Shown piece by piece: positions 1 through 26,786 of a stretch of DNA of 64,000 nt. The position numbers and the translations under genes are program-made. Source of the DNA: Franzmannia pantelleriensis (GTDB taxonomy: Bacteria; Pseudomonadota; Gammaproteobacteria; Pseudomonadales; Halomonadaceae). The notes under the pieces were generated by a model that worked only from the letters and a program-made list of their open reading frames with translations, did not search any database and was not told where the DNA came from. Where the stretch lies: the NCBI RefSeq assembly GCF_900102875.1, contig NZ_FNGH01000011.1:1-64000 (forward strand), given 5' to 3'. Within the stretch, counting starts at the first letter, position 1. Each line of letters begins with the position of its first letter.

Positions 1-1124
<1,124 letters not shown>

Positions 1125-1240: not shown

Positions 1241-3688
1241 TCAGTCGGCCGGGCGGTGATACCACCAGCGTCGCGGCAGGCGGCCCGCGCGCAAGGCCTC
1301 GGCTGTCCCGAGCAGGTCCTCGGGGAGCACGTCGGCAAGGCGCTGTGCTGCTTGCTGCCAGGGGCTGCCGAGGTGCCGTGGCAGCACCGATTTGCCCGCC
1401 GGGGGCGGTGCTTGGCGCAGCGTCTGCCATACCTGCTCGAGGGCGGCCGGGTAGGTCTCGGGTGGGCCATGGCGGGCCAGCAGTCCGCGGCGCTGGACGT
1501 CCAGCGCCGCAACCGAGATATTCGCCAGCGGTACCGCCTCGGCGCTAATGAAGGCGTCGATGGCGGCGCGCAGCGTGTCGCTATCGGCATGTGGCGACTG
1601 CACCACATAGCCGAGTCGCGGCCAGCCCGCCGCCTCGCGGTAGCGCACCGCGGCGGCGTAGCCAAGCCCCTGGCGCTGGCGCAGTGCCTGCTGGAAGGCG
1701 GCATCATGGCACTGACCGAGCAGGCGCAGTAGCCAGCGGCTGCGCGAGCTGGCATCCATGCCCATCACCTCGAGCATCACCGCGTGATCGCTGGCCTGGG
1801 GAGCGAGCCAGATCGTGTCGCTCGGTTCGGCGGGCGGCTTCGGCGTGCCCGGCAGTGCCGGGCACCGCGCCAGCAGGTCGCCGGGGCTGGCGGCGTCACT
1901 GGCCCAGCACAAGGGCGCGAACGCCGTGTGGTCGTTGGCCGGCGATGGGGCGCTTTCCAGCCGGCCGAGCAGTCGCTGAGCAATCAGCCCGACGGTGGGT
2001 GAGTCGGCGGCATGGTCACGCTCGTCAGCCGGCCAGGCGGCCAGGGCCTGCTCGGCCAGGCCGCGCACCTGGGCCGGCGTGCCGCTGGCGATCAGCCAGT
2101 CGCCGAGGCGGTCGCCGCCGAGCTGCAGCCTTGCGCCCTGTGCCCTGGCCGCCTGCCCCAGGGCCAGGCAGCGCCGACGCCAGTGGGTCAGTCGGGGGGA
2201 GGAGTCGGGCGCTGGCCAGCTCAGGGCGCAGTGGCTGATGGCTTGGGCCTCGCGTTCGGCCACTGGCCAGGGCGGCCGACCGAGCCAGTATGCGCCGCTG
2301 GGCGTGCCGGCTGGCGCTACGTCGAGTCGCGGTGCCTGGCGCGGCGCTGGGGCGAACGCTGGGCTGGCCGCTGGCAGCACGAGGCGCGCGACCCGTGTGG
2401 CGGTCTCCTCGAGGAGGCGCCAGTCGGATGCCTGCCGTGCTACCGCCGGCCGCTGCCACAGCAGCCGGCACTGATCCGGCGCCAGCCAGGCGGCCAGGGC
2501 TGCCTGGCCGTCACTTCGCACCGAGGCCGGTGGCTTGGCGGCCTGCCCGGCGAGGCGCCGGGCTTGGCGTCGCGGCCACTGGTCGAGTGCTGCGGTGCTG
2601 TTAGCGGCAAGGCAAGTGGTGGGAGAAAGGGGATCCCGCAGGGCTGCGTTCAGAGCCGGGTAGAGGCAAGCCAGCAATTCGCTCAGTGGCGGAGGAGGAG
2701 AGGCGAAATCCAGACGTAGCGACAGCGCCGGGCCACTGCCGGCCGGCTCGCTGGTGACCTGCATATCCCGCAGCGTTGCTGCCTGGCCAAGGGTCTCGGC
2801 CAGGGCGCCGTCGGCGAGGCGTGCTGCCACGCCGTCGAGGTAGGCCCGGTAGGCGTTGGCCAGGTCGGCAGGCAGCGGCCATAGCAGCTCTAGGCAGTGG
2901 TGCGAGTGGTCCGCCTCTGCGGCTGGGACGGGCAGCTGCCAGGCCATGCCGCCCGGTTCGGCCCAGCGCCACTCGCGTGCTGGTGTCGGGGGTGGAGCGC
3001 CATGGTCGAGCGTGGCGGCATGCTGCGCCAGCAGCGCGAGCTGCTCCTCGAGTGGCTGAGGGCCGAGCATCGCCAGTGCCATGCGCCGGGGGCGGTAGTG
3101 GCGATGCAGCGCGCGCAGCTCGGCGGCCAGGCCTTCGCCGCTTCCGGCCAGGCTGGCAGCGTGGCCGGCGTGGCAGCGCCGGGCGCTATGTCCCGGTCGG
3201 CACAGCTCGCCGAGTGCCGCCAGCCGGTGCAGCTCGGGGTCGGCTAGCCGGGCGTGAAACTCGGCGTCGAGTACCGCCACTTCGCGCTCGACCAGCGCCG
3301 GATCGAAGCAGGGCCTGGCCAGTAGCTCGCAGAGGTGCGCAAGGCCCGCCCCGGCAGCAGCAGGCGGCAGCTGCAGGTGCACGTCGGTGGCGATGTCGCC
3401 GGTATAGGCGTTGTAGCGGCCGCCCTGCTCGCCGACCCAGCGGCTCAGGGCATCGGGCTCGGGGCAGCGCTGGCTGCCGAGGAACAGGCTGTGTTCGAGC
3501 AGGTGAGCGAGGCCGGGACGCGTCGCGGGCTCGTCGAGATAGCCGAGATCGACGGCGCCGACCAGGCGGGCAAGGTGGGCGCTGGGCACCTCGGCGGCGA
3601 TCAGCCACAGGCCGCTGGCGTGCCGCTGTACGCGGCACCGGCTACCCACTGGCAGGCCCTGGCTCAGGTCGCTGTCATTCTGTCGCAT
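1241..3688 (-). CDS. pqqF: PqqF, M16-family zinc peptidase of PQQ biosynthesis
   Basis: Putative peptidase of 815 residues that helps process the PqqA peptide after crosslinking. The inverted zinc motif HLLEH is at residues 62-66. A glutamate falls at residue 143, exactly the 76-residue spacing expected for M16 enzymes. The C-terminal half is divergent, as is usual for PqqF. I chose the ATG at 3688 because GAGG lies 8 bases upstream; the open frame extends 16 codons further but runs into pqqE. It begins 13 bases after the pqqE stop and is the last gene of the pqq run. Assignment rests on the motif plus the operon position. Confidence 0.88.
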   Translation of the reverse strand: MRQNDSDLSQGLPVGSRCRVQRHASGLWLIAAEVPSAHLARLVGAVDLGYLDEPATRPGLAHLLEHSLFLGSQRCPEPDALSRWVGEQGGRYNAYTGDIATDVHLQLPPAAAGAGLAHLCELLARPCFDPALVEREVAVLDAEFHARLADPELHRLAALGELCRPGHSARRCHAGHAASLAGSGEGLAAELRALHRHYRPRRMALAMLGPQPLEEQLALLAQHAATLDHGAPPPTPAREWRWAEPGGMAWQLPVPAAEADHSHHCLELLWPLPADLANAYRAYLDGVAARLADGALAETLGQAATLRDMQVTSEPAGSGPALSLRLDFASPPPPLSELLACLYPALNAALRDPLSPTTCLAANSTAALDQWPRRQARRLAGQAAKPPASVRSDGQAALAAWLAPDQCRLLWQRPAVARQASDWRLLEETATRVARLVLPAASPAFAPAPRQAPRLDVAPAGTPSGAYWLGRPPWPVAEREAQAISHCALSWPAPDSSPRLTHWRRRCLALGQAARAQGARLQLGGDRLGDWLIASGTPAQVRGLAEQALAAWPADERDHAADSPTVGLIAQRLLGRLESAPSPANDHTAFAPLCWASDAASPGDLLARCPALPGTPKPPAEPSDTIWLAPQASDHAVMLEVMGMDASSRSRWLLRLLGQCHDAAFQQALRQRQGLGYAAAVRYREAAGWPRLGYVVQSPHADSDTLRAAIDAFISAEAVPLANISVAALDVQRRGLLARHGPPETYPAALEQVWQTLRQAPPPAGKSVLPRHLGSPWQQAAQRLADVLPEDLLGTAEALRAGRLPRRWWYHRPAD

Positions 3689-3701
3689 GCTGCATCCTCG
3701 C

Positions 3702-4853
3702 CTAGGTGCGACAGAATACCTGCGACTCCCGTGCATTGCGCAGCGTCAGCGCCTGCGCCGAGCGGCTGTCGTCGGCGGCCTCGCGGCGCGCCGCTTCGAT
3801 CAGGTGGTGGTCCGGCGACAGGTCGCAGACCGGATCGGTGGCCGCCGGATCGCCGGTCAGCATATAGGCCTGGCAGCGGCAGCCGCCGACGTCCTTGTGG
3901 CGCTCGTCGCAGCTGCGGCAGGGCTCCTGCATCCAGTCGTCGCCGCGATAGCGGTTGAAGGCGGCGCTGTCGTACCAGATCTCCTGCAGCGGGTGTTCGC
4001 GGGCGTTGGGGAAATCCATCGGCAGCATGCGGGCGCTGTGGCAGGGCAGGACCGCACCGTCGGGGGCGACGGTCATGAAGATCGAACCCCAGCCGCCCAT
4101 GCACGCCTTGGGGCGATCGGCGTAGTAGTCGGGCACCACGAACAGTAGGCGCATGTCGCGGTCGCGCTCGGCGAGGCGCTGCCGCCAGCGGTTAGTGGTG
4201 GCCTCGGCGGCCTCGAGCTGGGCCTGGCTCGGCAGCAGCCCGGCGCGGTTGAGGTGAGCCCAGCCGTAGAGCTGGCAGTTGGCGAGCTCCACGGCGTCGG
4301 CGCCCAGGTCGTCGCACAGTGCGATGATGGTGTCGAGTTGGTCGATGTTGTGGCGGTGCAGCACCACGTTGAGCACCATCGGATAGCCGGCCTCCTTGAC
4401 CGCTCGGGCCATGGCCAGCTTCTTGGCGTGGGCCTTGGCCGAGCCGGCCACTGCGGCGGCGACGTCGGGATCGGAGGCCTGCAGGCTGATCTGGATATGG
4501 TCGAGGCCGGCGTCGCGCAGGGCGTGGATGCGCGCCTCGTCGAGCCCCAGCGCCGAGGTGATCAGGTTGGTATAGAAGCCCAGCCGCCGCGCTTCGGCGA
4601 CCAGCGTTTCGAGGTCTTTGCGCACCAGCGGCTCGCCGCCGGAGAAGCCCAGCTGCACCGCGCCCATGGCCCTCGCCTGGGTCAGCACGTCGATCCACTC
4701 GTCGGTGGTCAGCTCCTGCTTGACCGCGGCGAAGTCCAGCGGGTTCGAACAGTAGGAGCACTGCAGCGGGCAGCGGTAGGTGAGCTCGGCGAGCAGCCAC
4801 AGCGGTGCGCCGGGGCTACCGTTGGCAGTGGCGGTATCGGTGTGATCAGTCAT
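3702..4853 (-). CDS. pqqE: PqqE, radical SAM PqqA-crosslinking enzyme
   Basis: A 383-residue radical SAM protein that forms the Glu-Tyr carbon-carbon bond in PqqA. The CxxxCxxC cluster motif is C28, C32 and C35 (RCPLQCSYC), followed by the SAM-binding GGEP. The C-terminal SPASM part is Cys-rich ([26 protein letters not shown]). The ATG at 4853 overlaps the pqqD stop by 8 bases, so it is translationally coupled. A longer in-frame start would lie inside pqqD and is unlikely. Full length for the family. Confidence 0.96.
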
Positions 4854-5133
4854 GCTGGATCCAGCCCTGTTGCTGGGCGTCGACGAGAAAGGCGTGTACG
4901 TCCTCGGCGATCGCCCCATCGGGAGCCTCGGGGAACTGCGCCTGCAGCCGCTCGATCAGCGTGGCGACATCGCGTTGGCCATCGAGCTGGCCGAGAATTG
5001 CGCCGGCGCTGTCGTTGAGTTTGACCATGCCCTCGGGGTAAAGCAGCACGTGGCGCTGCTGGGCCTCTTCCCACTGTAGTCGCCAGCCGGGGCGCAGGCG
5101 ATAGACGAGCGTGTCGATGCCGGTCTGATTCAT
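4846..5133 (-). CDS. pqqD: PqqD, PqqA-binding chaperone
   Basis: A 95-residue peptide chaperone that binds PqqA and presents it to PqqE. It starts [17 protein letters not shown] and contains the conserved [11 protein letters not shown] stretch and a DSAGAIL turn, typical of PqqD. The start overlaps the pqqC stop in an ATGA, and its own stop overlaps pqqE. The same frame stays open upstream into pqqC, so a naive ORF call would fuse it to unrelated sequence; the true start is the ATG at 5133. It is a separate gene here, not fused to pqqC or pqqE as in some bacteria. Confidence 0.95.
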
Positions 5134-5909
5134 GACAGCCCCCGATGATAGACGCGCTGGTCGGTGACGGTGTGGTAGGGCGGCCGCTCGAGCTGATAGG
5201 CCAGGGTCATGGCGTCGAGCATGCTCCACAGCACGTCGAGCTTGAACTGCAGGATCTCCAGCGCGCGCTCTTGTGCAGCGCGGGTGGTGCATACGGCGAG
5301 TGCCACCTCGAGACCGTGGTCGACATCGCGGCGGGCTTCCTTGAGGCGCTTGCGGAAGTAGCCGTAGCCGGCCTCGTCGATCCACGGGTAGTGGGTCGGC
5401 CAGGTATCCAGGCGGCTCTTGTGGGCCTCGGGCGCGAACAGCTCGGTGAGCGACGAGATCGCCGCTTCGCGCCAGTCGGCGCGGCGCACGAAGTTGAGGT
5501 AAGCGTCCACCGCGAAGCGCACCCCGGGCAGCACGTGCTCCTGGGACCATAGCTCATCCCGCGACAGGCCGACCGCCTCGCCGAGGGTCAGCCAGGCCTC
5601 GATACCGCCGCCGTCGTCATCGTGGCCGTCGTGATCTAGCAGACGCTGGATCCAGCGGCGCCGGGTCGCGGCGTCCGGGCAGTTGGCCAGCAGCGCGGCG
5701 TCCTTCTGGGGAATATTGATCTGATAGTAGAAGCGGTTAGCCACCCAGCCGCGCAGCTGTTCGGGCGTGGCGCGGCCCGCCGCCATATCGACCTGGTAGG
5801 GGTGATGGATATGGTAGTAGTCGCCCTTGGCCAGCAGCGCCTGACGAAAGGCGTCGGGGCTCATGGCCTCAACTGACGTGTCGCTTAGCGGCGATGCGAT
5901 GGCGGTCAT
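5130..5909 (-). CDS. pqqC: PqqC, pyrroloquinoline-quinone synthase
   Basis: Cofactorless oxidase of 259 residues that catalyses the final ring closure and oxidation to PQQ. Recognised by its TenA/PqqC-like all-helical pattern: YYHIHHPYQ near residue 32, the [14 protein letters not shown] segment, [15 protein letters not shown] and [13 protein letters not shown], all highly conserved in PqqC. Length matches the family (about 250). It follows pqqB after a 60-base gap and is coupled to pqqD by a 4-base overlap. Confidence 0.97.
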
Positions 5910-5969: not shown

Positions 5970-6899
5970 TCACACCTCCAGGCGCATGCCGTCGAAGGCG
6001 ACCTCGATGCCCTGTGCGGTAAGAGCAGCGCGCTGCTCGGAGCGCTCATCGAGAATCGGGTTGGTGTTGTTGATATGGATCAGCACGCGCCGGGTGGTCT
6101 CGGGCAGGGCATCGAGCTCGCCGAGCAGGCCATGCTCGCCGGACAGTGCCAGATGGCCCATGTCGCGGCCGGTGGCGCGGCCGACCCCGGCTTGGATCAG
6201 CTCATCGTCCTGCCACAGGGTGCCGTCGACCATGATGCAGTCGGCGTGCTGCAGGTAGCCGCGGGTGCGTTCGTCGAGTTCGCCGAGCCCAGGGGCGTAG
6301 AACAGCCGCGTGCCGCGGGTGGTGTCTTCGACCATCAGGCCAATATTGTCGCCCGGCGTGGGTGCGCCGCGACGCGGCGAATAGGGCGGCGCGTTGCTGG
6401 TCAGGGCCACGGCGGTAAAGGTCAGCCCCGGGCAGGCCGGCACCTTGAACTCGGCCTCCCAGTGGCCGTCGTCGATGCCGATGCGCTGCCACGCGAGCCC
6501 GCCCTGCCAGTGCTCCAGCATGCGAAATAGCGGGAAGCCGGTGCTCAGGTCCTGATGCACATTGGGCGTGCACCATACCTCGAACGGGCAGCCCTCACGC
6601 AGCGATAGCAGGCCGGTGGCGTGGTCGATCTGGGCATCCATCAGCACCACCCCGGAGATGCCGCTGTCGCGCGGGATACGCTTGGGGTGCAGCTCGGGGT
6701 TAGCGGCCAGCTGGGCACGAATGTCGGGGGAGGCATTGCACAGCAGCCAGTGCTCTCCATCACTGCTGATGGCGATCGATGACTGGGTACGCGGGGTCGC
6801 CTTGATGCTGCCATCGCGTACGCCGCGGCACATCCGGCAGTTGCAGTTCCACTGCGGAAAGCCGCCGCCTGCCGCCGCCCCGAGTACCAGTATCTGCAT
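5970..6899 (-). CDS. pqqB: PqqB, metallo-beta-lactamase-fold PQQ biosynthesis enzyme
   Basis: A 309-residue protein of the metallo-beta-lactamase fold, proposed to hydroxylate the tyrosine of the crosslinked PqqA intermediate. The N-terminus [19 protein letters not shown] with the CNCRMCRG zinc-type cysteines is diagnostic. Other family signatures are [16 protein letters not shown] and [20 protein letters not shown] directly precedes the ATG at 6899, which is why I prefer it to the start 14 codons upstream. It is separated from pqqA by an intergenic hairpin, so it is probably expressed at a lower level than pqqA. Confidence 0.96.
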
Positions 6900-7053: not shown

Positions 7054-7125
7054 TCAGCGGTTGGCGATGTAGAGCGTGACTTCGAAGCCTAGGCGCAGAT
7101 CCTGGTAGGTCGGTTTGGTCCACAT
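7054..7125 (-). CDS. pqqA: PqqA, PQQ precursor peptide
   Basis: A 23-residue ribosomal peptide whose glutamate and tyrosine side chains become PQQ. Read on the minus strand it begins [19 protein letters not shown], and the core E-V-T-L-Y has Glu15 and Tyr19 in the required E-x3-Y spacing. AGGAG lies upstream with normal spacing. It is too short for ordinary ORF scans. It is first in the pqqABCDEF run and diverges from the xoxF-type gene across a 387-base intergenic region. Confidence 0.97.
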
Positions 7126-7512: not shown

Positions 7513-9345
7513 ATGCATCTCAAGACGAGCTGCGCACTCGCAGCTGCGGGGCTTCTGGCTGTTACAGCGGCGACTACCCACGCCAATGACAGCCTGATGG
7601 AACTACTCGAAAATGATGACCTATGGGCCACCCAACTCGGTAACTACCACGGCCACCGCTACAGCAAACTCAGCGATATCAACCGCGACAACGTCAGCAA
7701 CCTGCGACCTGCCTGGCAGTTCTCAACCGGCGTGCTGCGCGGCCATGAAGGCGGGCCGCTATACGTTGGCGACGGGCGGCTCTACATCCACACGCCTTTC
7801 CCCAATAAGGTATTTGCGCTCGATCTGGAACAGGACGGCCGGCTGGTCTGGTCTTATGAGCCGGATCAGGATTCACGCGTCATTCCGGTAATGTGCTGCG
7901 ATACCGTCAACCGCGGCGTGGCCTACGCCGACGGCAAGATCTTCCTCAACCAGGCCGACAACACCGTGGTGGCGCTCAACGCTGAAGATGGCGAGGTGCT
8001 GTGGGAAGTCAGTAACGGTGACCATACCCAGGGCGAGACCATGACCATGTCGCCACTGGTGGTGCATGACAAGGTTATCGTCGGGGTCAGCGGCGGCGAG
8101 TACGGCATCCGCGGCCACCTCACCGCCTACGACATCGAGACCGGCGAGATGGCCTGGCGTGGCTACTCCCAAGGGCCTGACTCCGAGGTGCTGATCGACC
8201 CCGAGACCACCCTGATGATGGGCGAGCCGATTGGCGAGGCCGACCTCGGCGTAACCACCTGGCCTGACGGCGAGTGGGAACGCGGCGGCGGTGCGCCCTG
8301 GGGCTGGGTGACCTACGACCCCGAGCTTGATCTGATCTACTACGGCACCGGCAACCCGGGGACCTGGAACCCCGATCAGCGCGCCATCGACGGCGAGCCG
8401 GCGGATAACAAGTGGGGCATCACGGTGTTCGCCCGCGATCCCAGCACCGGCGAGACCAAGTGGGTCTACCAGAAGGTGCCCTTCGATGAGTGGGACTACG
8501 ACGGCGTCAACGAGAACGTGCTGATCGACGTCGAGGTCGACGGCGAGATGCGCAAGGGCCTGTCGATCATCGACCGCACCGGCTTCGGTTTCCTGATGGA
8601 TCGCGAGACCGGCGAACTGATCACCGTCGAGAAATTCGCCCCGGAAACCAACTGGGCCACTCACTATGACATGGAGACCGGGCGTCCGGTCGTTGATGAG
8701 GAGTTCAGCCCCTTCACCCAGGGGGTGAATGTCAACACCACCGATATCTGTCCCACCGCGATGGGCGCCAAGAACATGCAGCCGAGCTCGTTCTCGCCGG
8801 AGACCGGGCTGATCTATGCCGGTATCAACCGCATCTGCATGAACTATGAGCCCTTCGAGACCGACTATGTGGCGGGCCAGCCCTACGTCGGTGCGACCCT
8901 GACCATGATGCCGGCACCGGTGGAGAACGGTGGCATGGAAGGTCGCATGGGCAGCTTCATCGCCTGGGACCCGGTTGCCGGGGAAGTGGTGTGGGAAGTC
9001 GACGAGCGCTTCGCGGTCTGGAGCGGCGCGCTGACCACCGCCGGTAATCTGGCCTTCTACGGGACCCTCGAGGGCTACGTGAAGGCGGTCGACATCGACA
9101 ACGGCGAGGAGCTGTGGCGCTTCAAGACCCCGTCCGGGATCATCGGTAACGTCAACACCTTCCGCCATGAGGGCAAGCAGTATATCGCCGTGCTCTCCGG
9201 GGTTGGTGGCTGGGCCGGTATCGGGCTTGCAGCAGGGCTCGAGGATCCCGAGGAAGGCCTCGGGGCGGTAGGCGTGTTCTCTGCTCTGTCGGACTACACC
9301 GAACTGGGCGGCGTACTGACCGTGTTCGAACTGCCTGACGCCTGA
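7513..9345 (+). CDS. xoxF: XoxF-type PQQ- and lanthanide-dependent alcohol (methanol) dehydrogenase
   Basis: Periplasmic quinoprotein of 610 residues that oxidises methanol or another short alcohol with PQQ and passes electrons to cytochrome c. A signal peptide ends near residue 24 (TTHA-ND). Adjacent cysteines C128-C129 in VMCCDTVNRG form the ring disulfide. Expected metal ligands are E196 (GGEYG), N281 (GTGNPGTW) and the catalytic D328. D330 in DEWDYDGVNE is the extra Asp that marks lanthanide-type enzymes; calcium MxaF has Ala there. The TQLGNYHGHRYSKL and GDHTQGETMT stretches also resemble XoxF. Start chosen at the ATG after AGGAGA; an upstream in-frame start would add non-signal sequence. 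A few extra residues (AIDGEPADNKW) lie between N281 and D328. ExaF-like enzymes share the Asp, so the substrate is inferred. Confidence 0.92.
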   Translation: MHLKTSCALAAAGLLAVTAATTHANDSLMELLENDDLWATQLGNYHGHRYSKLSDINRDNVSNLRPAWQFSTGVLRGHEGGPLYVGDGRLYIHTPFPNKVFALDLEQDGRLVWSYEPDQDSRVIPVMCCDTVNRGVAYADGKIFLNQADNTVVALNAEDGEVLWEVSNGDHTQGETMTMSPLVVHDKVIVGVSGGEYGIRGHLTAYDIETGEMAWRGYSQGPDSEVLIDPETTLMMGEPIGEADLGVTTWPDGEWERGGGAPWGWVTYDPELDLIYYGTGNPGTWNPDQRAIDGEPADNKWGITVFARDPSTGETKWVYQKVPFDEWDYDGVNENVLIDVEVDGEMRKGLSIIDRTGFGFLMDRETGELITVEKFAPETNWATHYDMETGRPVVDEEFSPFTQGVNVNTTDICPTAMGAKNMQPSSFSPETGLIYAGINRICMNYEPFETDYVAGQPYVGATLTMMPAPVENGGMEGRMGSFIAWDPVAGEVVWEVDERFAVWSGALTTAGNLAFYGTLEGYVKAVDIDNGEELWRFKTPSGIIGNVNTFRHEGKQYIAVLSGVGGWAGIGLAAGLEDPEEGLGAVGVFSALSDYTELGGVLTVFELPDA

Positions 9346-9510: not shown

Positions 9511-10056
9511 ATGATGAGAGTCTTCACGTCACGCCAGACGTCCCGTTTTGCCACACCCTCGCTGGTCGCCGCCCTGATGGCAGCCGGCCTGAGCATATCC
9601 ACGTTGGCCCTGGCCGGCGGTGACAACGATAAAGAGAACGGTGACACCGTCGATACCAGCGCCGCCGGGGAGTATCTGGTCGAGGACGGTAAGGTCGACC
9701 CCGACACCTACGACGGTTATATCGCCTATACCCGCTCCTGTCAGGCTTGCCACGGGCCCGATGGGCTGGGTTCCTCCTTTGCACCCAATCTGGTGCGTGC
9801 TTCGGAGCGGCGTGATTTCGCCGAGTTTGCGCGGACCATTGCCGGTGGCCGTGAAGTGCAGCCGGGTCAAGTCATGCCGGCGTTTGCCGACGATCCTTAC
9901 GTGCTGGGCAATCTCGAGAACATCTACAGCTATATGCGTGGCCGTGCGGCGGGCGACATCGGCCGCGGGAGGCCGCAGATCATCGAGCGCCTGGAAGAGC
10001 AGGTCAGCGATGAGACGCTGGAGGCCGAAGAAGAACGCGAAGACGAGGAATCTTGA
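9511..10056 (+). CDS. xoxG: Periplasmic c-type cytochrome, XoxG-like electron acceptor
   Basis: A 181-residue secreted monohaem cytochrome c, the likely electron acceptor of the upstream dehydrogenase. A signal peptide ends near residue 35 (LALAG). The haem site CQACH is C77, C80 and H81, and the probable axial Met is in GQVMPAF. The GGREVQPGQVMPAF and LENIYSYMRGRA segments resemble the cytochromes that accompany xoxF. The C-terminus is a strongly acidic tail of about 20 residues. Two adjacent ATGs (9511, 9514) are possible starts. It lies 165 bases after xoxF behind a hairpin. Confidence 0.88.
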   Translation: MMRVFTSRQTSRFATPSLVAALMAAGLSISTLALAGGDNDKENGDTVDTSAAGEYLVEDGKVDPDTYDGYIAYTRSCQACHGPDGLGSSFAPNLVRASERRDFAEFARTIAGGREVQPGQVMPAFADDPYVLGNLENIYSYMRGRAAGDIGRGRPQIIERLEEQVSDETLEAEEEREDEES

Positions 10057-10111: not shown

Positions 10112-10963
10112 ATGAGGTTACGCGGTTCACTGATATGTGTGACGGCAGCCGCCTGGCTGCTGTTCCAGGGCATCGGTGCGGTCTATGCCGACCTGCCCGA
10201 GCTGTACGAGCGCGACCAGCTGCGGGTCTGCGCCGACGGCAACAACCTGCCGTTTACCAATAGCGCCGGTGAGGGCTTCGAGAACCGCATTGCCGAGCTG
10301 ATGGCCGACGATCTGGGCGTGCCGCTGCGCTACGTCTGGGCGCCGCAGGTCATGGGCTTCGTGCGCAATACCCTCGAACTGCGCGTCTGCGATGTAATGA
10401 TCGGGGTGGTGGCGGGCTACGAGCACCTCCAGAACACCAATGAATACTACCGGTCGGTGTATTCGCTGGTGGTGCCGGAGGATTTCGAGCATGAGATCAC
10501 CCGCCTCGATGACCCGGCACTCGAGGGGCTGGATATCGGCGTGGTCGCCGAGACGCCGCCCATCGTGCCGCTGCGGCGCAGCGGTGCCACGGTGCGCAAC
10601 TACCTGCTGCAGGTCGATACCCGCGAGCGCGCCCCAGTGCGTGATGCGGTCGATGATGTGGCCAGCGGCACTTTGGATGGCGCGGTGATCTGGGGGCCGA
10701 TGGCCGGCTACTTCGCCGCGCGTCACGATCCCCCTCTCAAGGTACTGCCGCTGCATGAAGATGACAGCGATGTGCGCCTGGACTTCCGCATTACCATGGG
10801 CATCCGCCGCGGCGAGCCGCAGTGGAAGGACTGGATCAACGACTTCATCGCCCGCCATCAGGACGAGATCAATGCCATTCTGGTGGAGTATCAGGTGCCG
10901 CTGCTCGATCGTCGCGGGGCGCTGATCGATCCGACCACGCTTGACGCGGAGGAGGCATCATGA
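10112..10963 (+). CDS. xoxJ: XoxJ/MxaJ-like periplasmic binding protein of quinoprotein dehydrogenase loci
   Basis: A 283-residue secreted protein of the bacterial extracellular solute-binding family 3 fold. Members sit beside quinoprotein dehydrogenases and are thought to help mature or activate them rather than import solutes. It has a signal peptide ending at about VYA-DL, then LRVCADGNNLPFTN and FENRIAELMADDLGV, which are typical. Cys pairs in RVCAD and RVCDV could form a disulfide. GGAGA precedes the ATG at 10112. The same frame is open far upstream through the cytochrome gene, which is a shadow. The 3' end overlaps the next gene in an ATGA. Confidence 0.87.
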   Translation: MRLRGSLICVTAAAWLLFQGIGAVYADLPELYERDQLRVCADGNNLPFTNSAGEGFENRIAELMADDLGVPLRYVWAPQVMGFVRNTLELRVCDVMIGVVAGYEHLQNTNEYYRSVYSLVVPEDFEHEITRLDDPALEGLDIGVVAETPPIVPLRRSGATVRNYLLQVDTRERAPVRDAVDDVASGTLDGAVIWGPMAGYFAARHDPPLKVLPLHEDDSDVRLDFRITMGIRRGEPQWKDWINDFIARHQDEINAILVEYQVPLLDRRGALIDPTTLDAEEAS

Positions 10964-11610
10964 ACAGCTCCCGTCCCTCCGCACTGATACTCAGCCTGCC
11001 GTTGGGCCTGCTGCTGGCGCTGGCATCGCCGCCCCCCGCTGAGGCCCAGCGTGCCGCTACCGGTCCTCCCGACTGGCCCTGCGTACAGCGCCTGGTGCCG
11101 GAGCTGGCCTGGGGCACTATCTGGACCGGACCTTCGCTGGATGAGGTCGAGGAGGCGTGGTACGACGACGAGGAGGTGGGCCGCGTGGTGCGCTATGCCA
11201 TGGCCCGCGAGACCCGCAGCGACGACGCCATGCAGAGGGTAAGCGAGTTCGTCGATAGCCTCGCCGCCGACGACCCCGCCGAACGCGAGGCGCGCCTGAC
11301 GCTGCTGTTCTCGGGCCTCTTCGAACTCACCCAGCGCGAGCGTAGCCGCACCATCGAGCGTATTCGGGGCGCGTCCCGCGCTCAGGTCGCGCGGCTCGAG
11401 AAGGTTGCCGAAATGGTCGACGAGCTCGAGGCACTGCGCGGCGAAGATGACATGGATCTGCAGCAGGAGGAGGAGCTTTCCAAGGCGCTGTTCTGGGAGC
11501 AGCGTACTTTCCAGACACGCCAGCAGTCGCTGCCGGCGCTGTGCGAGCAGCCCTATCTGCTCGAGGAACGGCTCGGCCAGATGGTACGCATCATCGACGC
11601 CGGGATGTAA
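10960..11610 (+). CDS. Secreted protein of unknown function in the quinoprotein run
   Basis: I do not recognise a named domain in this 216-residue protein. It has a clear signal peptide (about residues 1-29, ending AEA-QR), a Pro-Cys motif in DWPCVQRLVPEL and a second Cys in ALCEQPYLLEERL, which could form one disulfide. The rest is charged and mostly helical (ERSRTIERIRGASRAQVARLEKVAEMVDELEAL). It is translationally coupled to xoxJ by an ATGA overlap and followed by the ABC module, so it is probably a periplasmic accessory of the alcohol-oxidation system. That role is inferred from position only. Confidence 0.8.
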   Translation: MNSSRPSALILSLPLGLLLALASPPPAEAQRAATGPPDWPCVQRLVPELAWGTIWTGPSLDEVEEAWYDDEEVGRVVRYAMARETRSDDAMQRVSEFVDSLAADDPAEREARLTLLFSGLFELTQRERSRTIERIRGASRAQVARLEKVAEMVDELEALRGEDDMDLQQEEELSKALFWEQRTFQTRQQSLPALCEQPYLLEERLGQMVRIIDAGM

Positions 11611-11670
11611 GGCCGCCAAGGCGCGCTAACAACGACAATAGACGCGGGCGATCCCCGCTAGGGAGTGCAT

Positions 11671-12900
11671 ATGTGGGCTGATAACGTAGGGGCTCGCCCG
11701 CTGGCGGGCTGGCTGGTGGCGGGCTCGCTGGCCGCCAGCGTGGCGCTGGCGGGGCCGGTGCTGGCGCAGGACGAGGAGGTCGCCACCATCACCCTGGGCT
11801 ACCTGGGCATGGAGCGACCCGACGATCTCGAGCCGCTCTCGGTGCTCGACCCGGTGATCGACGATGACGGCGTGCAGGGCGCGCGCCTGGCGGTCAATGA
11901 TAACAACGCCACCGGCCAGTTTCTCGGCCAGGAGTTCGTGCTGGTCGAGGCGATGGTGGAGCCGGGCGGGGATGTGGCCGCCGGCCTCGAACAGCTGATC
12001 GAACAGGGCGCCGACTGGATTATCAGCGGGTTGAGTGCCGATGATCTCGGCACTGTGCTCGAGCACCAGTCGCTCGGCGAGCGGGTGGTGTTCAACGCCG
12101 CGGCACGCGATAACCACCTGCGCGGTGAGTCGTGCCACCCTCAGTTGTTCCACAGCGTGCCCAGCCGGCGCATGCTGGCCGATGCCCTGTCGCAGTTCCT
12201 TGGCTACAAGCAGTGGGACCGCTGGGGGCTGGTCTACGGCAACACCGATCAGGATCGGCTGTTCGCCGAGACCCTGCGCGAGTCCGCCGAACGCTACGGC
12301 CATGAGGTGGTCAGCGAGAAGATGTGGCCCTACGAGGCCATGGCGCGACGCTCCGAGGGCGGCTTTCACGATATCCAACGCGAGATTCCGGTGTTCCTCC
12401 AGGAGTTCGCCGAGCACGACGTGCTGGTGATCTCCGACGAGACCGACTACTTCGGCGAGTTCTTCCCCAACCAGACCTGGCTGCCGCGGCCGGTGGCCGG
12501 TACCCAGGGGCTAATGGCCACCGCCTGGCACCGCTCCCATGAATCCTGGGGGGCGGTGCAGCTGCAGCGGCGCTTCGAGCGGCTCGCCGAGCGCTGGATG
12601 ACGCCTCAGGACTTCGGCGCCTGGCTGGCGGTTCGCTCGCTGGGCGAGGCCGCCGCGCGCACCGGCTCGGTGGAACGCGCCGAGGTGATCGACTATATGC
12701 TCAGCGACGAGTTCGAGCTGGCCGGCTACCTGGGCTTCCCGGTCAGCTACCGCACCTGGAACCACCAGCTGCGCCAGCCGATCCTGATCAGCGGGCCGCG
12801 CATGGTGGCCTCGGTCTCGCCCCAGGAGGGCTATCTGCATCCGCGCACGCCGCTGGATGCCATGGGTGTCGACGAGGGGGAATCACAATGCCAATTCTAA
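11671..12900 (+). CDS. Periplasmic binding protein of the PQQ-alcohol-associated ABC system
   Basis: A 409-residue protein with a signal peptide (ending LAQ-DEE) and a type I periplasmic-binding fold like branched-chain amino-acid receptors: ITLGYLGMER at the mature N-terminus, GADWIISGLSADDL, and WGLVYGNTDQDRLFAETLRESAERYG. It matches in kind and order the family of ABC binding proteins found with PQQ-dependent alcohol dehydrogenases (as in TIGR03863; name from memory, no search run). The ligand is not known. GGGAG is 5 bases upstream of the ATG at 11671; a GTG two codons earlier is also open. It overlaps the next gene by 13 bases. Confidence 0.85.
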   Translation: MWADNVGARPLAGWLVAGSLAASVALAGPVLAQDEEVATITLGYLGMERPDDLEPLSVLDPVIDDDGVQGARLAVNDNNATGQFLGQEFVLVEAMVEPGGDVAAGLEQLIEQGADWIISGLSADDLGTVLEHQSLGERVVFNAAARDNHLRGESCHPQLFHSVPSRRMLADALSQFLGYKQWDRWGLVYGNTDQDRLFAETLRESAERYGHEVVSEKMWPYEAMARRSEGGFHDIQREIPVFLQEFAEHDVLVISDETDYFGEFFPNQTWLPRPVAGTQGLMATAWHRSHESWGAVQLQRRFERLAERWMTPQDFGAWLAVRSLGEAAARTGSVERAEVIDYMLSDEFELAGYLGFPVSYRTWNHQLRQPILISGPRMVASVSPQEGYLHPRTPLDAMGVDEGESQCQF

Positions 12901-13892
12901 GCCGCGAGACTGCCGCCATGTTCAAACCGACGCTCCTCGGGCTGGCGCTGGGCGCCCTGGCGCTGACCCCGCTGGTCGCCAGCGCCGAGCGTATCTTCGT
13001 CTCCAACGAGAAGGACAACACCATTTCGGTGATCGACGGCGCGAGCCTCGAGGTCATCGAGACCATCGACGTCGGCCGCCGGCCGCGCTCGATGGCCTTC
13101 AGCAGCGACGGCAGCGAGCTGTTCGTCGCCGTGGGCGACGACGAGGCGATCGACATGATCGATCTCGAGACGCTGCAGGTAGTGCGCAGCCAGGCCTCCG
13201 GCGAGGATCCCGAGGTGATCCGCGTCGACCCCAACCGACCCTACATCTACGTCTCCAATGAGGACGACAACATCGTCTCGGTGCTCGACTACGAGCGGCG
13301 CACCCTGGTTACCGAGATTCCGGTGGGCGTAGAGCCGGAGGGCCTCGGCATCAGCCCCGACGGCCGCTGGCTGGTCTCCACCACTGAGACCTCCAACATG
13401 GCGCATATCATCGACACCGAACTGATGGAGACCGTGCACCACCGGCTGGTGGGAGCGCGTCCGCGCCACGCCGAGTTCACCCACGACGGCAGCGAGGCCT
13501 GGGTCTCGGCGGAGATCGCCGCCACGGTGTCGATCATCGACATGGTCGACAGCTTCGACGTCGAGCACACCATTCGCTTCGATGTGCCCGGCGTGCCGCG
13601 TGAGACCGTGCAGGCGGTGGGCATCCAGCTTACCTCCGACGGTCGCTACGGCTTTGTCGCGCTGGGCCCCTCCAATCGCGTGGCGGTGGTCGACCAGCAG
13701 ACCTACGAGGTGCTCGACTATATCCTGGTCGGTCAGCGGGTCTGGCACCTGGCGCTCAACGAGGACGAGACGCGGCTCTACACCACCAACGGCGTCAGCG
13801 GCGATGTCACGGTGATCGATGTAGAGAGCCTCACCGCGCTGCAGTCGATACCGGTAGGGCGCTTCCCGTGGGGGGTGATCGTCCAGCCATGA
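12888..13892 (+). CDS. Secreted YVTN beta-propeller protein of the PQQ-alcohol locus
   Basis: A 334-residue secreted seven-blade-type propeller. The signal peptide ends VASA-ER. YVTN-style repeats recur: RIFVSNEKDNTISVID, YIYVSNEDDNIVSVLD, RLYTTNGVSGDVTVID, each followed by a VGxxPxG/A-type turn. Proteins of this type (TIGR03866 in memory) accompany PQQ-dependent catabolism loci. No PQQ-binding Trp-docking set is evident, so it is more likely a binding or scaffold protein than an enzyme. GAGGGGGA precedes the ATG at 12888; a later ATG at 12918 would also leave a good signal peptide. Confidence 0.85.
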   Translation: MPILSRETAAMFKPTLLGLALGALALTPLVASAERIFVSNEKDNTISVIDGASLEVIETIDVGRRPRSMAFSSDGSELFVAVGDDEAIDMIDLETLQVVRSQASGEDPEVIRVDPNRPYIYVSNEDDNIVSVLDYERRTLVTEIPVGVEPEGLGISPDGRWLVSTTETSNMAHIIDTELMETVHHRLVGARPRHAEFTHDGSEAWVSAEIAATVSIIDMVDSFDVEHTIRFDVPGVPRETVQAVGIQLTSDGRYGFVALGPSNRVAVVDQQTYEVLDYILVGQRVWHLALNEDETRLYTTNGVSGDVTVIDVESLTALQSIPVGRFPWGVIVQP

Positions 13893-14653
13893 CGGTGGGC
13901 GAGAGCACAGAGGTTCCCGCGCTCGAGGTGGAAGGGCTGAGCTTCAGCTACAGCGGCAAGCCGGTGTTGCAGGAGGTTGGCCTGCGCCTCGAGGCGGGGC
14001 AGTTCACGGTCTTGCTGGGCCCCAACGGGGCCGGCAAGACCACCCTGTTTTCGCTGATCACGCGGCTCTACGACCGCCGCGTGGGCAGCATTCGCGTCGG
14101 CGGCTTCGAGCTGCGGCGGGATGCCGTGGCGGCCCACGCGCGGATGGGCGTGGTGTTCCAGCAGCCGACCCTGGATCTCGATCTCACGGTGCGACAGAAC
14201 CTCACCTATCACGCCGCCCTGCACGGCATGGGCCCTCGTGAGGCGCGGCGGCGTGCCGAGGAGCAGTTGCAGCGGGTGGGGTTGGGCGAGGCGCTCAAGA
14301 CGCGGGTGCGCCAGCTCTCCGGCGGCCAGCGGCGGCGGGTGGAGATTGCCCGTGGCCTGCTGCACCGACCGCGCCTGCTGCTGCTGGATGAGCCCACCGT
14401 GGGGCTGGATATTGCCGCGCGCCGCGATCTGGTCGAGCGGGTCCACCGGCTGTGCGTGGACGAGGGCGTGGCGGTGCTGTGGGCCACCCACCTGATCGAC
14501 GAGGTCTACCCGGACGACCGTGTGGTGGTGCTCGACGCCGGACGGGTGCGCGCCAGCGGCAGCGTCAGCGAGGTGCTGGCATCCAGCGGTGCCACCAGTA
14601 TCGGCGAGGCCTTCGACACCCTGACCCGCGGTCCCACCGAGGTGGCCACATGA
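13889..14653 (+). CDS. ABC transporter ATP-binding protein of the PQQ-alcohol locus
   Basis: A 254-residue ABC-2-type ATPase on the cytoplasmic side. Walker A is LGPNGAGKTTL, the Q-loop is VVFQQPTLDLDLTV, the signature is LSGGQRRRVEIARGL, Walker B is LLLLDEPTVGLD and the switch His is in WATHLIDEV. The start at 13889 overlaps the propeller gene stop in an ATGA, so it is preferred over an in-frame start 7 codons upstream. Together with the permease that follows it should energise a transporter whose substrate is unknown; export is as likely as import, given the ABC-2 class. Confidence 0.92.
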   Translation: MTVGESTEVPALEVEGLSFSYSGKPVLQEVGLRLEAGQFTVLLGPNGAGKTTLFSLITRLYDRRVGSIRVGGFELRRDAVAAHARMGVVFQQPTLDLDLTVRQNLTYHAALHGMGPREARRRAEEQLQRVGLGEALKTRVRQLSGGQRRRVEIARGLLHRPRLLLLDEPTVGLDIAARRDLVERVHRLCVDEGVAVLWATHLIDEVYPDDRVVVLDAGRVRASGSVSEVLASSGATSIGEAFDTLTRGPTEVAT

Positions 14654-15453
14654 ACCGCTACCTGCACTGCCTGCGCGGCGTGGTCAGCCGCGAATTGCTG
14701 CGCTTCCTGCACCAGCGCACGCGCTTCGTGGCGGCGCTGGTGCGGCCGCTGATCTGGCTGTTCGTGTTCGCCGCCGGCTTTCGCATGGCGCTGGGCGTGG
14801 CGATGACCGACCCCTACAAGACCTACATCCTGTATGAGGTCTATATCATCCCCGGCCTGGTGGGCATGATTCAGCTGTTCAACGGCATGCAGAGTTCGCT
14901 GTCGATGGTCTACGACCGCGAGATGGGCAGCATGCGCGTGCTGCTAGTCAGCCCCTTCCCGCGCTGGTACCTGCTGCTGTGCAAGCTACTGGCGGGGACC
15001 ATGGTGTCGATCGTGCAGGTCTATGTGTTCCTGACTATCGCCTGGTTCTACGGCATCAAGGCGCCGCCGATGGGCTACCTGTGGATCCTGCCGGCGCTGG
15101 TGGTCACCGGCTTCATGGTCGGCGCCCTGGGCATGCTGCTGTCGACCTTCGTCAAGCAGCTGGAGAACTTCGCCGGGGTGATGAACTTCGTAATCTTTCC
15201 GATGTTCTTCCTCTCCTCGGCGCTCTATCCGCTGTGGCGGATCCGCGAGGGCAGCTATCTGGTCTATCAGATCGCTTCGCTCAACCCCTTCACCTACGCT
15301 GTGGAGATGATTCGCTTCGCGCTCTATGAGCAGCTCAACGTTGATGCGGTGCTGATCGTGGCGGCCACGACCCTGGTGCTATTGGCGCTGGCGATTCTGG
15401 GCTATAACCCGGCACGGGGCATGATGGCGCGCAAGGGTGGCGGCGGAGAGTAA
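14650..15453 (+). CDS. ABC-2-type transporter permease of the PQQ-alcohol locus
   Basis: A 267-residue inner-membrane permease with about six hydrophobic segments. It starts MNRYLHCLRGVVSRELLRF and contains the ABC-2 features SMVYDREMGSMRVLLVSPFPRW and LSSALYPLWRI. It is coupled to the ATPase by an ATGA overlap. Similar permeases occur beside pedE/exaA-type alcohol dehydrogenases in pseudomonads, with unknown substrate. The C-terminus is short and basic (ARGMMARKGGGGE). It ends only 6 bases before the convergent cytochrome gene. Confidence 0.9.
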   Translation: MNRYLHCLRGVVSRELLRFLHQRTRFVAALVRPLIWLFVFAAGFRMALGVAMTDPYKTYILYEVYIIPGLVGMIQLFNGMQSSLSMVYDREMGSMRVLLVSPFPRWYLLLCKLLAGTMVSIVQVYVFLTIAWFYGIKAPPMGYLWILPALVVTGFMVGALGMLLSTFVKQLENFAGVMNFVIFPMFFLSSALYPLWRIREGSYLVYQIASLNPFTYAVEMIRFALYEQLNVDAVLIVAATTLVLLALAILGYNPARGMMARKGGGGE

Positions 15454-15459
15454 GAGTGA

Positions 15460-15849
15460 CTATTGCGCTTCCTGCTGGGCTTCGAGATAGCGGATCACCG
15501 CCTGGCGCGGGGCCTCATCCAGCCCCCACAGCACCATGCGGTTACCCGGCAGCAGCCCCTCGGGGTCGGCCAGGAAGGCGTCCAGCATCTCGGCATCCCA
15601 GTGGAAGTCTTGCGCGTCCAGCGCGGTGGAGTAGTCGAAATCCTCGAGGCCGCCTACCGGGCGGCCGATCACCTCGAACAGGCTTGGGCCGGCGCGATGT
15701 ACGCCCTCCTGCAGCGCATGGCAGCCGAAGCAGTGGTTGCGGAAGACGCGTTCGCCTTCGCGAACATCGTCGGCCAGCGCCGGCAGCGCTGCGCTGGCGG
15801 TCAGCACGGCAAGCGGCAGCCAGGCACCCGGGCAGCGGGATAGGGGCAT
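15460..15849 (-). CDS. Small secreted cytochrome c of the alcohol-oxidation island
   Basis: A 129-residue class I cytochrome c. Signal peptide to about LPALA-DD, haem site CFGCH in FRNHCFGCHALQEG, and PSLFEVIGRPVG after it. The likely axial Met is in LPGNRMVLWGL. It resembles the c550-type cytochromes (PedF/ExaB-like) that accept electrons from PQQ dehydrogenases. It faces the ABC module and is read together with the upstream small Cys-rich gene (20-base gap). It would be a second possible electron acceptor besides the 9511 cytochrome. Confidence 0.87.
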   Translation of the reverse strand: MPLSRCPGAWLPLAVLTASAALPALADDVREGERVFRNHCFGCHALQEGVHRAGPSLFEVIGRPVGGLEDFDYSTALDAQDFHWDAEMLDAFLADPEGLLPGNRMVLWGLDEAPRQAVIRYLEAQQEAQ

Positions 15850-15869: not shown

Positions 15870-16238
15870 TCAGAAGCAGCGCAGGTCGGCTTCGGCCTGG
15901 GCACTGCGGAACTGGCGCACCTGATCCTGTAGGCCGCGCTCGGTGCGGAATAGCACGCCGAGCTCGCCGCGCTGGTCGTTCATGCGCATCACGGTTTCGA
16001 CGGACTCGTACTCTTCATAGGGAATCAGCTCGGCGATCACGTCGATGCTGCATGAGCACTGTTGCATTACCAGATGGTTCTGGCCGTTGGCGGCCATACA
16101 ACCGAGCACGTAGTCGACGCGGGTCGAGGTGGGATAGTCGTTGGCCATTGCCAGCGGCGCGGCAAACAGCAGCCCAGCAAGCAGCGCGAACGCTGCAGGC
16201 CGTGATGTGGCGTGGCGCATCTTGTTGTTATGGCGCAT
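15870..16238 (-). CDS. Small secreted Cys-rich protein of unknown function
   Basis: No domain I can name. 122 residues: signal peptide to about AMA-ND, then GCMAANGQNH, QQCSCSIDVIAELIPYEEYES and a C-terminal LRCF. The four cysteines in the mature chain suggest two disulfides in the periplasm. GAGG is upstream of the ATG at 16238; an alternative ATG is 6 codons in. It lies directly upstream of the cytochrome c gene on the same strand, so it may help that cytochrome or the dehydrogenase. This link is positional only. Confidence 0.75.
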   Translation of the reverse strand: MRHNNKMRHATSRPAAFALLAGLLFAAPLAMANDYPTSTRVDYVLGCMAANGQNHLVMQQCSCSIDVIAELIPYEEYESVETVMRMNDQRGELGVLFRTERGLQDQVRQFRSAQAEADLRCF

Positions 16239-16349
16239 GCAGTACCTCGGGTGAGTGGCGTGATATCACCCTTTAACGTTATGTCAGGCGCGGCGCTTTC
16301 GCCAGCGTCGATCACTCACCGAGGAGACCTGGCGCTTAGGCACTATCGC

Positions 16350-16697
16350 CTAGCGTGACCGCCGCTGCTCGGGCGCGTCCTTGACCTCGTAGTCGCCCTC
16401 CAGCACCTGCTGATGGTGCGTATGCCGTTCGGCTCGGCCGCTGCCAATGTCCTGGGCCTGTTCGGCGCGCATGCGCTCCATGCGTTTCTTCATGCGGTGG
16501 CGCATAAACGGCAGCATGGCCCAGCCGACCAGCAGGAAGAACAGGCCGATGACGGTACCCACGATCATCAGGGTGCCGAACAGCAGCCAGGTGAAGAACA
16601 GGCGCAGGCCGCTGGGCCGGCCCTGGCGGGCGCGTTCCCGCCACTGCTGGGCGGCCTGCCAGGCGGGGTTGTCGCGCGGGTCTCGAGAGTTGGGCAT
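16350..16697 (-). CDS. Small membrane protein of unknown function
   Basis: 115 residues with a basic, hydrophilic N-terminus, one long or two short hydrophobic segments (LFFTWLLFGTLMIVGTVIG and FFLLVGWAMLPF) and a charged tail rich in Arg, Met, Gln and His. No catalytic motif is visible. It stands alone between the oxidation island and azlD; no operon is evident. The coding frame has the local codon bias, which supports a real gene. Confidence 0.65.
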   Translation of the reverse strand: MPNSRDPRDNPAWQAAQQWRERARQGRPSGLRLFFTWLLFGTLMIVGTVIGLFFLLVGWAMLPFMRHRMKKRMERMRAEQAQDIGSGRAERHTHHQQVLEGDYEVKDAPEQRRSR

Positions 16698-16770
16698 TAG
16701 CGGCTCCGGAAAAGCATCAAGTTGAGCGTGTGGCTATTGGAAGTCACCCGCCGCGGATCGTTCCGCACAG

Positions 16771-17079
16771 CTAGATAAGCCGCCAGCCGGCGGCGGTGGC
16801 GATACCGGCGGCAATCGCCAGCAGCGGCTTGCGACTGGCGAGCATCACGACGAAGGTGGCAACCAGCGCCAGCCGGGCGCCCCAGTCGCCATAGACGGCC
16901 ATCGGCGTGATCACCGCCACCAGCACCGAGCCAGCCATGGCGTTGATAAAGCGCTCGACCCGCGGGCCGATGGGCACCCGCGACATCACCAGCACCCCGC
17001 CGCTACGTGTTAGGTAGGTGACCAGTGACATGATCAGGATGGCCAATATGGCGCCGAGTGGCGTTAGCGGCAGGCTCAT
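16771..17079 (-). CDS. azlD: AzlD-family membrane protein (small subunit of an amino-acid exporter)
   Basis: 102 residues with about four hydrophobic helices. TYLTRSGGVLVMSR near the N-terminus, and the RFINAMAGSVLVAVITP segment, are typical of AzlD. AzlC and AzlD together form an exporter for branched-chain or related amino acids in the inner membrane. The start overlaps the azlC stop in an ATGA, so the pair is coupled. Length is normal. Confidence 0.9.
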   Translation of the reverse strand: MSLPLTPLGAILAILIMSLVTYLTRSGGVLVMSRVPIGPRVERFINAMAGSVLVAVITPMAVYGDWGARLALVATFVVMLASRKPLLAIAAGIATAAGWRLI

Positions 17080-17786
17080 GGCGAGCCCTCCTTGGGTTTG
17101 CTGCGCGGCGGTATCAGCAACCCGGCGATGCCGCCGGCCAGGGCGCCGACGATGACATGGGAGTTCTCAGGCAGCCAGGCCAATGCAGCGAGGGCGGCCA
17201 GCGCCGCAGCAGCCCAGGGCACCAGCACGCCGAGGTCGAGCTTGCCGCCCACCAGCATCGCCAGCAGGAAGCAGCCCATGATCACGTCGAGGCCGAAGCG
17301 TTCGGGCTCGCTGATACCGCTCCCGAACACCACGCCGAGCAGGGTGCCGAGCATCCACGCCAGCCACAGCGCGATACCGCCGCCCACCAGCATGCCGACA
17401 TTGGTCTCGCCGCGGCGGTAATCGGCGGCGGCCATGGCCCAGTTGGAGTCGCTCATCAGTGCCAGGCTGGCGTAGCGCTGGCGCACCGGCAGATGACGCA
17501 GCCAGGGGTAAAGGGCGGCGCCCATCAGCAGGTGGCGGGCGTTGATGGCGAAGGTTGAAGCGATCAGTGCGATCAGCGGAATCTGTGGCCCCCACAGCTC
17601 GAGGGCGGCGAACTGCGAGGCGCCGGCGAATACCATGCCGCTCATCAGCAGCGTCTCGAGTCCTGACAGCCCGCGCTGGATCGCTGCCACGCCAAACGCC
17701 AGGCCGAAAGCGATCACGAACAGCGACAGCGGCGCCATGCGCTTAAGGCCCTTGAGGGTGCCCGGCCAGTCGAGCCGGGCGCTCAT
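17076..17786 (-). CDS. azlC: AzlC-family transporter (large subunit of an amino-acid exporter)
   Basis: 236 residues with about seven hydrophobic segments. [16 protein letters not shown] and [18 protein letters not shown] are family hallmarks. It partners AzlD directly downstream. The gene starts at 17786, inside the stop region of the LLM oxidoreductase (ATGA overlap). A longer open frame reading upstream is a shadow of that gene. Azl transporters are often near LysR or Lrp regulators; none is adjacent here. Confidence 0.92.
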
Positions 17787-26768: not shown

Positions 26769-26786
26769 ACGCCACCACTGCTTCGT

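Follow-up and report, generated by a model that had tools for sequence, protein, structure and literature searches.

Genes of the xoxF locus

The window analyzed here, a 64,000-nucleotide stretch of the Franzmannia pantelleriensis genome (contig NZ_FNGH01000011.1), opens with a gene cluster built around xoxF. On the minus strand, frmA and pqqFEDCBA diverge from a plus-strand series running from xoxF to pedC, after which a small cytochrome gene and a gene for a 122-aa protein are again reversed. The xoxF frame (7513 to 9345, plus strand) has no interruption between its ATG and its stop codon. Its product, a PQQ dehydrogenase of 610 aa, is marked by its residues and its position in the tree as a XoxF5-type alcohol dehydrogenase with a predicted dependence on lanthanides. 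A further in-frame ATG at 7453 would give an alternative product of 630 aa. The N-terminus carries what we judged by eye to be a Sec-like signal peptide.

At the window's edge lies frmA, encoding S-(hydroxymethyl)glutathione (formaldehyde) dehydrogenase (1 to 1049, minus strand; TIGR02818 at 683 bits, cut-off 543.95, C19:3-1046). The gene is truncated by the contig end at base 1, and its ATG at 1049 was read from the sequence. A forward ORF at 21 to 1043 was rejected as the opposite-strand mirror of frmA. Comparison with window positions 1 to 351 revealed frmA fragments at other contig ends of the same genome, identical over 351/351 bases on C25 (L117) and 95/95 bases on C13 (L120), with a 95% identical copy on C14 (L116). 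Since such fragments lie at several contig edges, the assembly was probably broken by the presence of two or more copies of frmA in this genome.

The PQQ biosynthesis genes follow on the minus strand: a gene for a pqqF-like protease (1241 to 3736, start perhaps 3688; TIGR02110 at 166.9 bits, below the cut-off of 320), pqqE (3702 to 4919, start perhaps 4853; TIGR02109 at 572.9 bits, above cut-off), pqqD (4846 to 5133, start from the sequence; TIGR03859 at 106.9 bits, cut-off 46), pqqC (5130 to 5909; TIGR02111 at 357.1 bits, cut-off 240) and pqqB (5970 to 6899, start from the sequence; TIGR02108 at 408.1 bits, cut-off 245). The 23-aa precursor peptide gene pqqA (7054 to 7125) was the sole match when both strands of the window were scanned for E-x3-Y, which we take to be the pqqA motif. 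The full pqqABCDEF set of the original prediction is thus in place, with pqqA identified by motif, pqqB to pqqE above their NCBIfam cut-offs and pqqF by a match below its cut-off.

A cytochrome and a XoxJ-like gene had also been proposed beside xoxF, and both were found on the plus strand. The XoxG-like c-type cytochrome (9511 to 10056) has one CxxCH and scored 94.5 bits with TIGR03874, below the cut-off of 161.75, and just above cut-off with PF13442. The quinoprotein-associated periplasmic binding protein XoxJ (10112 to 10963, start from the sequence) scored 283.2 bits with TIGR03871, above the cut-off of 212.15. Next comes a conserved 216-aa protein (10960 to 11610) that matched no NCBIfam or Pfam family, followed by an ABC cassette associated with PQQ alcohol dehydrogenases. 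This consists of a substrate-binding protein (11665 to 12900; TIGR03863 at 430.1 bits, cut-off 413.6), a PQQ-associated YVTN beta-propeller protein (12888 to 13892, start perhaps 12918; TIGR03866 at 442.8 bits, above cut-off), an ATPase (13868 to 14653; TIGR03864 at 335.8 bits, above cut-off) and a PedC-type permease (14650 to 15453, start from the sequence; TIGR03861 at 412.3 bits, above cut-off). On the minus strand, the small c-type cytochrome (15460 to 15849; CFGCH) reached 26.9 bits with PF13442, just below the cut-off of 27, and is homologous to a cytochrome adjoining xoxF5 in Sagittula; the 122-aa protein (15870 to 16238) looks secreted, is conserved and has no family match. The ABC cassette, like frmA, is an addition to the cluster as originally described.

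Bases 16240 to 17780 contain conserved ORFs that show no obvious connection with XoxF. Two adjoining minus-strand ORFs at 16774 to 17849, conserved in six relatives, look by eye like the two genes of an AzlC/AzlD pair for amino acid export. After the cluster, here and in several related loci, come a BCCT-type osmolyte transporter and a luciferase-like monooxygenase (TIGR03558), which in the window span 17783 to 20629. Farther along, an aconitase gene adjoining that of a GntR/FCD regulator (20921 to 23576, minus strand) and genes for two NMT1_3 (TAXI-type) binding proteins and a DctM transporter (25743 to 31197, plus strand) probably serve TRAP uptake of an organic acid.

Metal ligands, phylogeny and PQQ pocket of XoxF

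All four ligand and catalytic residues, E196, N281, D328 and D330, are present in the window XoxF, as is a Cys128-Cys129 pair; in SolV XoxF2 numbering these are E172, N256, D299, D301 and C104-C105. The predicted D328-Y329-D330 motif was read in the translation at exactly those positions. We aligned 101 PQQ dehydrogenase rows (39 from the window's own sublineage, 49 other XoxF5 and 13 outside XoxF5; fragment L078 was left out), and E196, N281 and D328 were invariant. Asp at position 330 was found in 39/39 sublineage, 49/49 other XoxF5 and 7/13 outside rows, although these rows are related, so that residue counts reflect few events, and their choice depended partly on the motif, since the peptide PFDEWDYD, one of six used to fetch loci, spans D-x-D. 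The six remaining outside rows had Ala (four MxaF, in line with the original statement about the calcium enzyme) or Ser (two of ExaA type). The extra Asp is essential for lanthanide coordination according to the available text of PMC8546591 and PMC11996626. Because most reference glucose dehydrogenases also carry D-x-D, as reported in the accessible part of PMC11996626, the motif alone is no proof of lanthanide use. Taking residues and phylogeny together, the window XoxF is very probably lanthanide-dependent.

The best solved relatives were 6oc5 (787.6 bits) and 6dam (780.4 bits), both XoxF, which we take to be the enzymes of Methylorubrum extorquens AM1 and Methylotuvimicrobium buryatense, respectively. 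The XoxF2 structure 4mae (627.7 bits) and the best MxaF, 1lrw (612.4 bits), scored lower. With solved structures at 58% identity, the predicted fold is fixed. In a 54-row tree the window XoxF fell in a 41-row clade (support 100/99) with both XoxF5 structures, and MxaF (100/100), XoxF2 with XoxF1 (100/95) and ExaA/PedH (100/100) lay outside; a 66-row tree without XoxF1 gave the same placement. The ranking of solved structures and this clade bear out the proposed XoxF type, and the suggested alignment against characterized XoxF, PedH and MxaF proteins put the window XoxF outside the MxaF and ExaA/PedH clades. Since neither tree includes XoxF3 or XoxF4 references, the XoxF5 label is based on which solved structures are closest and on the RefSeq name of the Sagittula homologue. 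The available text of PMC8546591 assigns XoxF4 to Methylophilaceae and XoxF5 to varied proteobacteria.

Other identities were considered and rejected. An MxaF identity conflicts with D330 in place of Ala and with the separate MxaF clade, and for ExaA, PedE or PedH the relevant rows (1flg, 6zcv, L112 and L135) form their own clade. XoxF2 was set aside on the position of 4mae in the XoxF2 and XoxF1 clade. In that clade, 7o6z was taken as XoxF1 from PMC8546591, which names 7O6Z in the part available. The XoxF1 criterion from the same source, an Asp directly before the metal-binding Glu, is absent here, Gly195 standing in 39/39 sublineage rows.

Within the XoxF5 clade, the window XoxF belongs to a 22-row sublineage (100/99) together with Azospirillum, Skermanella, Oleisolibacter, Inquilinus and Rhodovibrio. 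The 19-row sister sublineage, whose support is only 91/86, holds the solved enzymes 6oc5 and 6dam. The window's own 15-row group (100/100), made up of Halomonadaceae, Ectothiorhodospiraceae MAGs, a Rhodobacteraceae MAG and Aquamicrobium, is nested among mostly alphaproteobacterial rows in the 54-row tree, and the simplest reading of this nesting would be transfer of a cassette into gammaproteobacterial halophiles. One record titled as a Rhodovibrio sp. MAG (L008) has an 84% identical XoxF that sits among Halomonadaceae in the 66-row tree, far from Rhodovibrio sodomensis, which may reflect transfer or mis-binning.

The sublineage also has an altered PQQ pocket. Ala261-Pro262 (GGGAPW) occurs in 38/39 sublineage rows, the exception being Thr-Val in L036; among the other 49 XoxF5 rows Ala261 was found once and Pro262 never. 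Thr356 is present in 39/39 sublineage rows versus 0/62 others, all of which have Asn. Asn421, likewise in 39/39, is replaced by Asp in 48/49 other XoxF5 rows, 6dam excepted, and Asn also stands at this position in 8/13 outside rows. The SolV counterparts are T236, N327 (Thr here) and D388 (Asn here), and in SolV R326 and D388 presumably contact PQQ. Ala261-Pro262 and Asn421 are the same letters as in ExaA (1flg) and in 6zcv, which we take to be PedH. Phe324 occurs in 39/39 sublineage rows but also in 27/49 other XoxF5 rows and is not distinctive. Compared with 28/49 other XoxF5 rows, the loop that follows N281 has five extra residues, but in the remaining 21/49 it is as long or longer. According to the available text of PMC8546591, the counterpart of residue 261 lies opposite the loop of the metal-binding Glu. 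On the strength of the alignment, the altered pocket of this mostly halophilic sublineage might shift the substrate range.

Direct comparison with single enzymes gave the same picture at the level of motifs. The structures 6oc5 and 6dam share with the window XoxF the E, N, D and D ligands and the Cys pair, but have GGGCTW or GGGTTW where the window has GGGAPW, and DRNG and PHD where it has DRTG and PFD. PedH and ExaA share the APW and AKN pocket letters, and PedH also D-x-D, yet they are only 35% and 38% identical to the window XoxF, respectively, and ExaA has Ser at the 330 position. The mature protein is very acidic as well, with a pI of 4.2 versus 6.24 for 6oc5 and 5.07 for 6dam. The sublineage median is 4.2 (4.11 to 4.45) against 5.65 (4.22 to 8.78) for other XoxF5, although acidity alone is not unique to the sublineage, since L126, L059 and L057 come close (pI 4.22 to 4.31). 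Finally, xoxF is under purifying selection, with dN/dS of 0.042 to 0.053 at dS of 0.32 to 0.34 against three relatives, each 97% identical.

Distribution and conservation of the cluster

Among the best 80 of 245 relatives, the nearest named ones of the window XoxF are Halomonas sp. ML-15, H. socia and H. salipaludis at 97% identity, followed at 80 to 85% by Litchfieldella, Billgrantia, Vreelandella, Modicisalibacter, Aidingimonas and others. These Halomonas and allied Halomonadaceae genera agree with the halophilic host that had been suspected. A xoxF at 81% identity or more was present in 26 of 151 family genomes, evenly drawn from a larger group with the window's genome included, and in all five listed genomes of its own genus. 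The gene is patchy yet widespread in the family.

Cluster conservation was surveyed by tblastn (E 1e-8) with 16 query genes in 38 fetched sublineage loci, which are stretches of differing length. Both xoxG and xoxJ were found in 37/38 loci. The gene for the 216-aa protein is present in 36, that for the ABC binding protein in 35 and pedC in 34; the 122-aa protein and pqqB were each found in 32, pqqB lying upstream on the opposite strand in 31. pqqF was found in 26 loci, and frmA was adjacent or near in 24. Contig ends account for some of the missing genes; others, such as pqqB in L022 and pqq in L036, have no such evident cause. The order xoxF, xoxG, xoxJ, 216-aa protein, substrate-binding protein, YVTN protein, ATPase and PedC was the same in 34/34 complete loci of the 38.

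Parts of this gene set also surround ordinary XoxF5 genes. Sagittula sp. P11 (L126) and Sinorhizobium meliloti Rm41 pSymB (L127) share with the window homologues of frmA, xoxG, xoxJ, the 216-aa and 122-aa proteins, the small cytochrome, the ABC binding protein, the YVTN protein and the ABC ATPase, and S. meliloti also has PedC. In total, 10/16 query genes have homologues around xoxF5 in Sagittula and 11/16 in S. meliloti. Unlike the window, both have a different gene order and no pqq genes in the stretches compared, and their XoxF proteins are 59 to 60% identical to that of the window.

Predicted function and alternative explanations

The window XoxF is the only methanol/ethanol-type PQQ dehydrogenase (TIGR03075) in its genome; two further TIGR03075 matches are weak and fall in pieces on a single 429-aa frame, which is also matched by PF13360 and which we infer to be BamB-like. 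With no second TIGR03075 protein there is no mxaF, so that the profile search of the genome upholds the absence first noted from the window, and the pqq set probably serves the window XoxF. Genes for S-formylglutathione hydrolase (FghA), formyl-THF ligase and an alpha subunit of formate dehydrogenase all scored above cut-off in the genome. For C1 assimilation, RuBisCO and Fae gave no match in the genome and RuMP HPS none above cut-off. This downstream gene set fits methanol oxidation for energy. No lanthanide uptake or storage gene was identified, but the single lanmodulin search of the genome, run with no positive control, carries no weight as a negative.

We favor, with a probability of about 0.83, a working periplasmic alcohol dehydrogenase of XoxF5 type in a Halomonas, dependent on PQQ and a lanthanide, together with an energy-yielding pathway as follows. 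PQQ would be made by the products of the divergent pqqABCDEF genes, and the exported XoxF would bind it along with a light lanthanide via E196, N281, D328 and D330. The enzyme, activated with the help of XoxJ, would oxidize methanol, and probably also ethanol and other primary alcohols, and the XoxG-like cytochrome encoded beside it would accept the electrons. Formaldehyde would then be converted to formate by the glutathione pathway, through FrmA next door and FghA encoded elsewhere in the genome, and formate to CO2 by formate dehydrogenase. Since formaldehyde would be oxidized through to CO2, the alcohol is proposed to be more an energy source than a carbon source. Against this explanation count the cytochrome and pqqF scores below their model cut-offs, the three positions at which the sublineage pocket differs from characterized XoxF5 enzymes, and the lack of a C1 assimilation route among RuBisCO, Fae and RuMP HPS.

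The pocket differences raise the possibility, which we hold only tentatively, that a XoxF5 scaffold has been retuned: the enzyme would still depend on lanthanides, but its physiological substrate would be ethanol, another C2+ alcohol or an aldehyde, with methanol oxidation a side activity. The ExaA and PedH letters at Ala261-Pro262 and Asn421 point this way, as do Thr356 in place of the Asn of 62/62 other rows and an adjoining ABC system, PedC included, of the kind that NCBIfam assigns by name to PQQ alcohol dehydrogenases. The available portions of the literature add that Ideonella sakaiensis has a XoxF with a preference for long-chain alcohols (PMC11166783) and that a xoxF5 mutant of strain La 6 lost growth on ethanol too (PMC5934484). 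However, Asn421 is also found in 6dam, a XoxF5 methanol dehydrogenase, the same ABC genes near ordinary XoxF5 of Sagittula and S. meliloti are no marker of a new substrate, and frmA adjacent or near in 24/38 sublineage loci points to formaldehyde as product. A bolder and rather doubtful version would make the whole sublineage, across Halomonadaceae, Ectothiorhodospiraceae and a few alphaproteobacteria, a distinct salt-adapted lanthanide enzyme that acts on a C2+ alcohol or aldehyde and not on methanol. Three sites of its pocket would have been remodeled, with two of the changes bringing it closer to that of ethanol dehydrogenases, and the gene would have moved between halophiles as a cassette with the cytochrome, XoxJ and the PQQ ABC system.

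A calcium enzyme, either MxaF-like or a XoxF using Ca2+ in vivo, is very unlikely: the available text of PMC11996626 contrasts the D-x-D of glucose dehydrogenases with their calcium-dependent models, but the MxaF rows have Ala at 330 and a clade of their own at 100/100, and the genome encodes no TIGR03075 protein besides the window's. We give even less credence to a gene gained by horizontal transfer that has since fallen out of use. Its patchy occurrence, at 81% identity or more in 26/151 of the family genomes sampled, and its nesting among mostly alphaproteobacterial rows would suit such a relic, yet the frame is intact, dN/dS is about 0.05, the cluster is conserved and the acidic composition matches a saline periplasm. 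An ethanol dehydrogenase of the ExaA/PedE/PedH type, for which the common APW and AKN letters might speak, deserves practically no weight at 35 to 39% identity and is excluded by the tree, where that type forms a separate 100/100 clade.

For the favored XoxF5-type enzyme, the closest characterized case is Marinibacterium anthonyi La 6 (PMC5934484). As described in the available text, La 6 and Rhodobacter sphaeroides resemble the window in having a single xoxF5 with adjacent xoxG and xoxJ and glutathione-linked formaldehyde oxidation, and the lone xoxF5 of La 6 is essential for growth on methanol and ethanol. The same text notes that many xoxF5-bearing Roseobacters do not grow on methanol or were untried. 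In contrast, the window comes from a gammaproteobacterial halophile and has a XoxF5 of another sublineage, an altered PQQ pocket and an adjoining divergent pqq operon.

The original remark that such oxidation is little described in halophiles stands in part. The literature searched, which mostly lacks subscription journals, yielded no report of XoxF in Halomonadaceae, and the main texts available to us mention neither Halomonas nor Azospirillum (PMC6028718) and no Halomonas (PMC11996626). XoxF in salt-tolerant bacteria is, however, already known: salt-tolerant methylotrophs with XoxF appear in the accessible literature, and one cited paper calls Methylotuvimicrobium buryatense haloalkaliphilic in its title. 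The locus is thus a standard XoxF5 module of known type whose presence in Halomonadaceae seems undescribed. It would extend lanthanide biology to this family and predicts that some Halomonads need or profit from rare earths when oxidizing alcohols. As Halomonads are widespread and widely cultured halophiles, the prediction is directly testable in type strains, and an acidic XoxF with an altered PQQ pocket is a naturally occurring variant in which the basis of metal and substrate selection could be studied.

Other PQQ dehydrogenases were also seen in the family. One genome outside the 26 (G121) has homologues at 61% and 49% identity; the first (G121:C7:155187-156956, L111) is a XoxF5 of the other sublineage, weakly grouped with 6dam, and the second lies at G121:C22:16623-18290. 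Three family genomes (G143, G139 and G147; loci L112, L113 and L114) have a 40%-identical PQQ dehydrogenase instead, and that of L112 falls with ExaA in the tree and carries a site of calcium type, with Ser at position 330.
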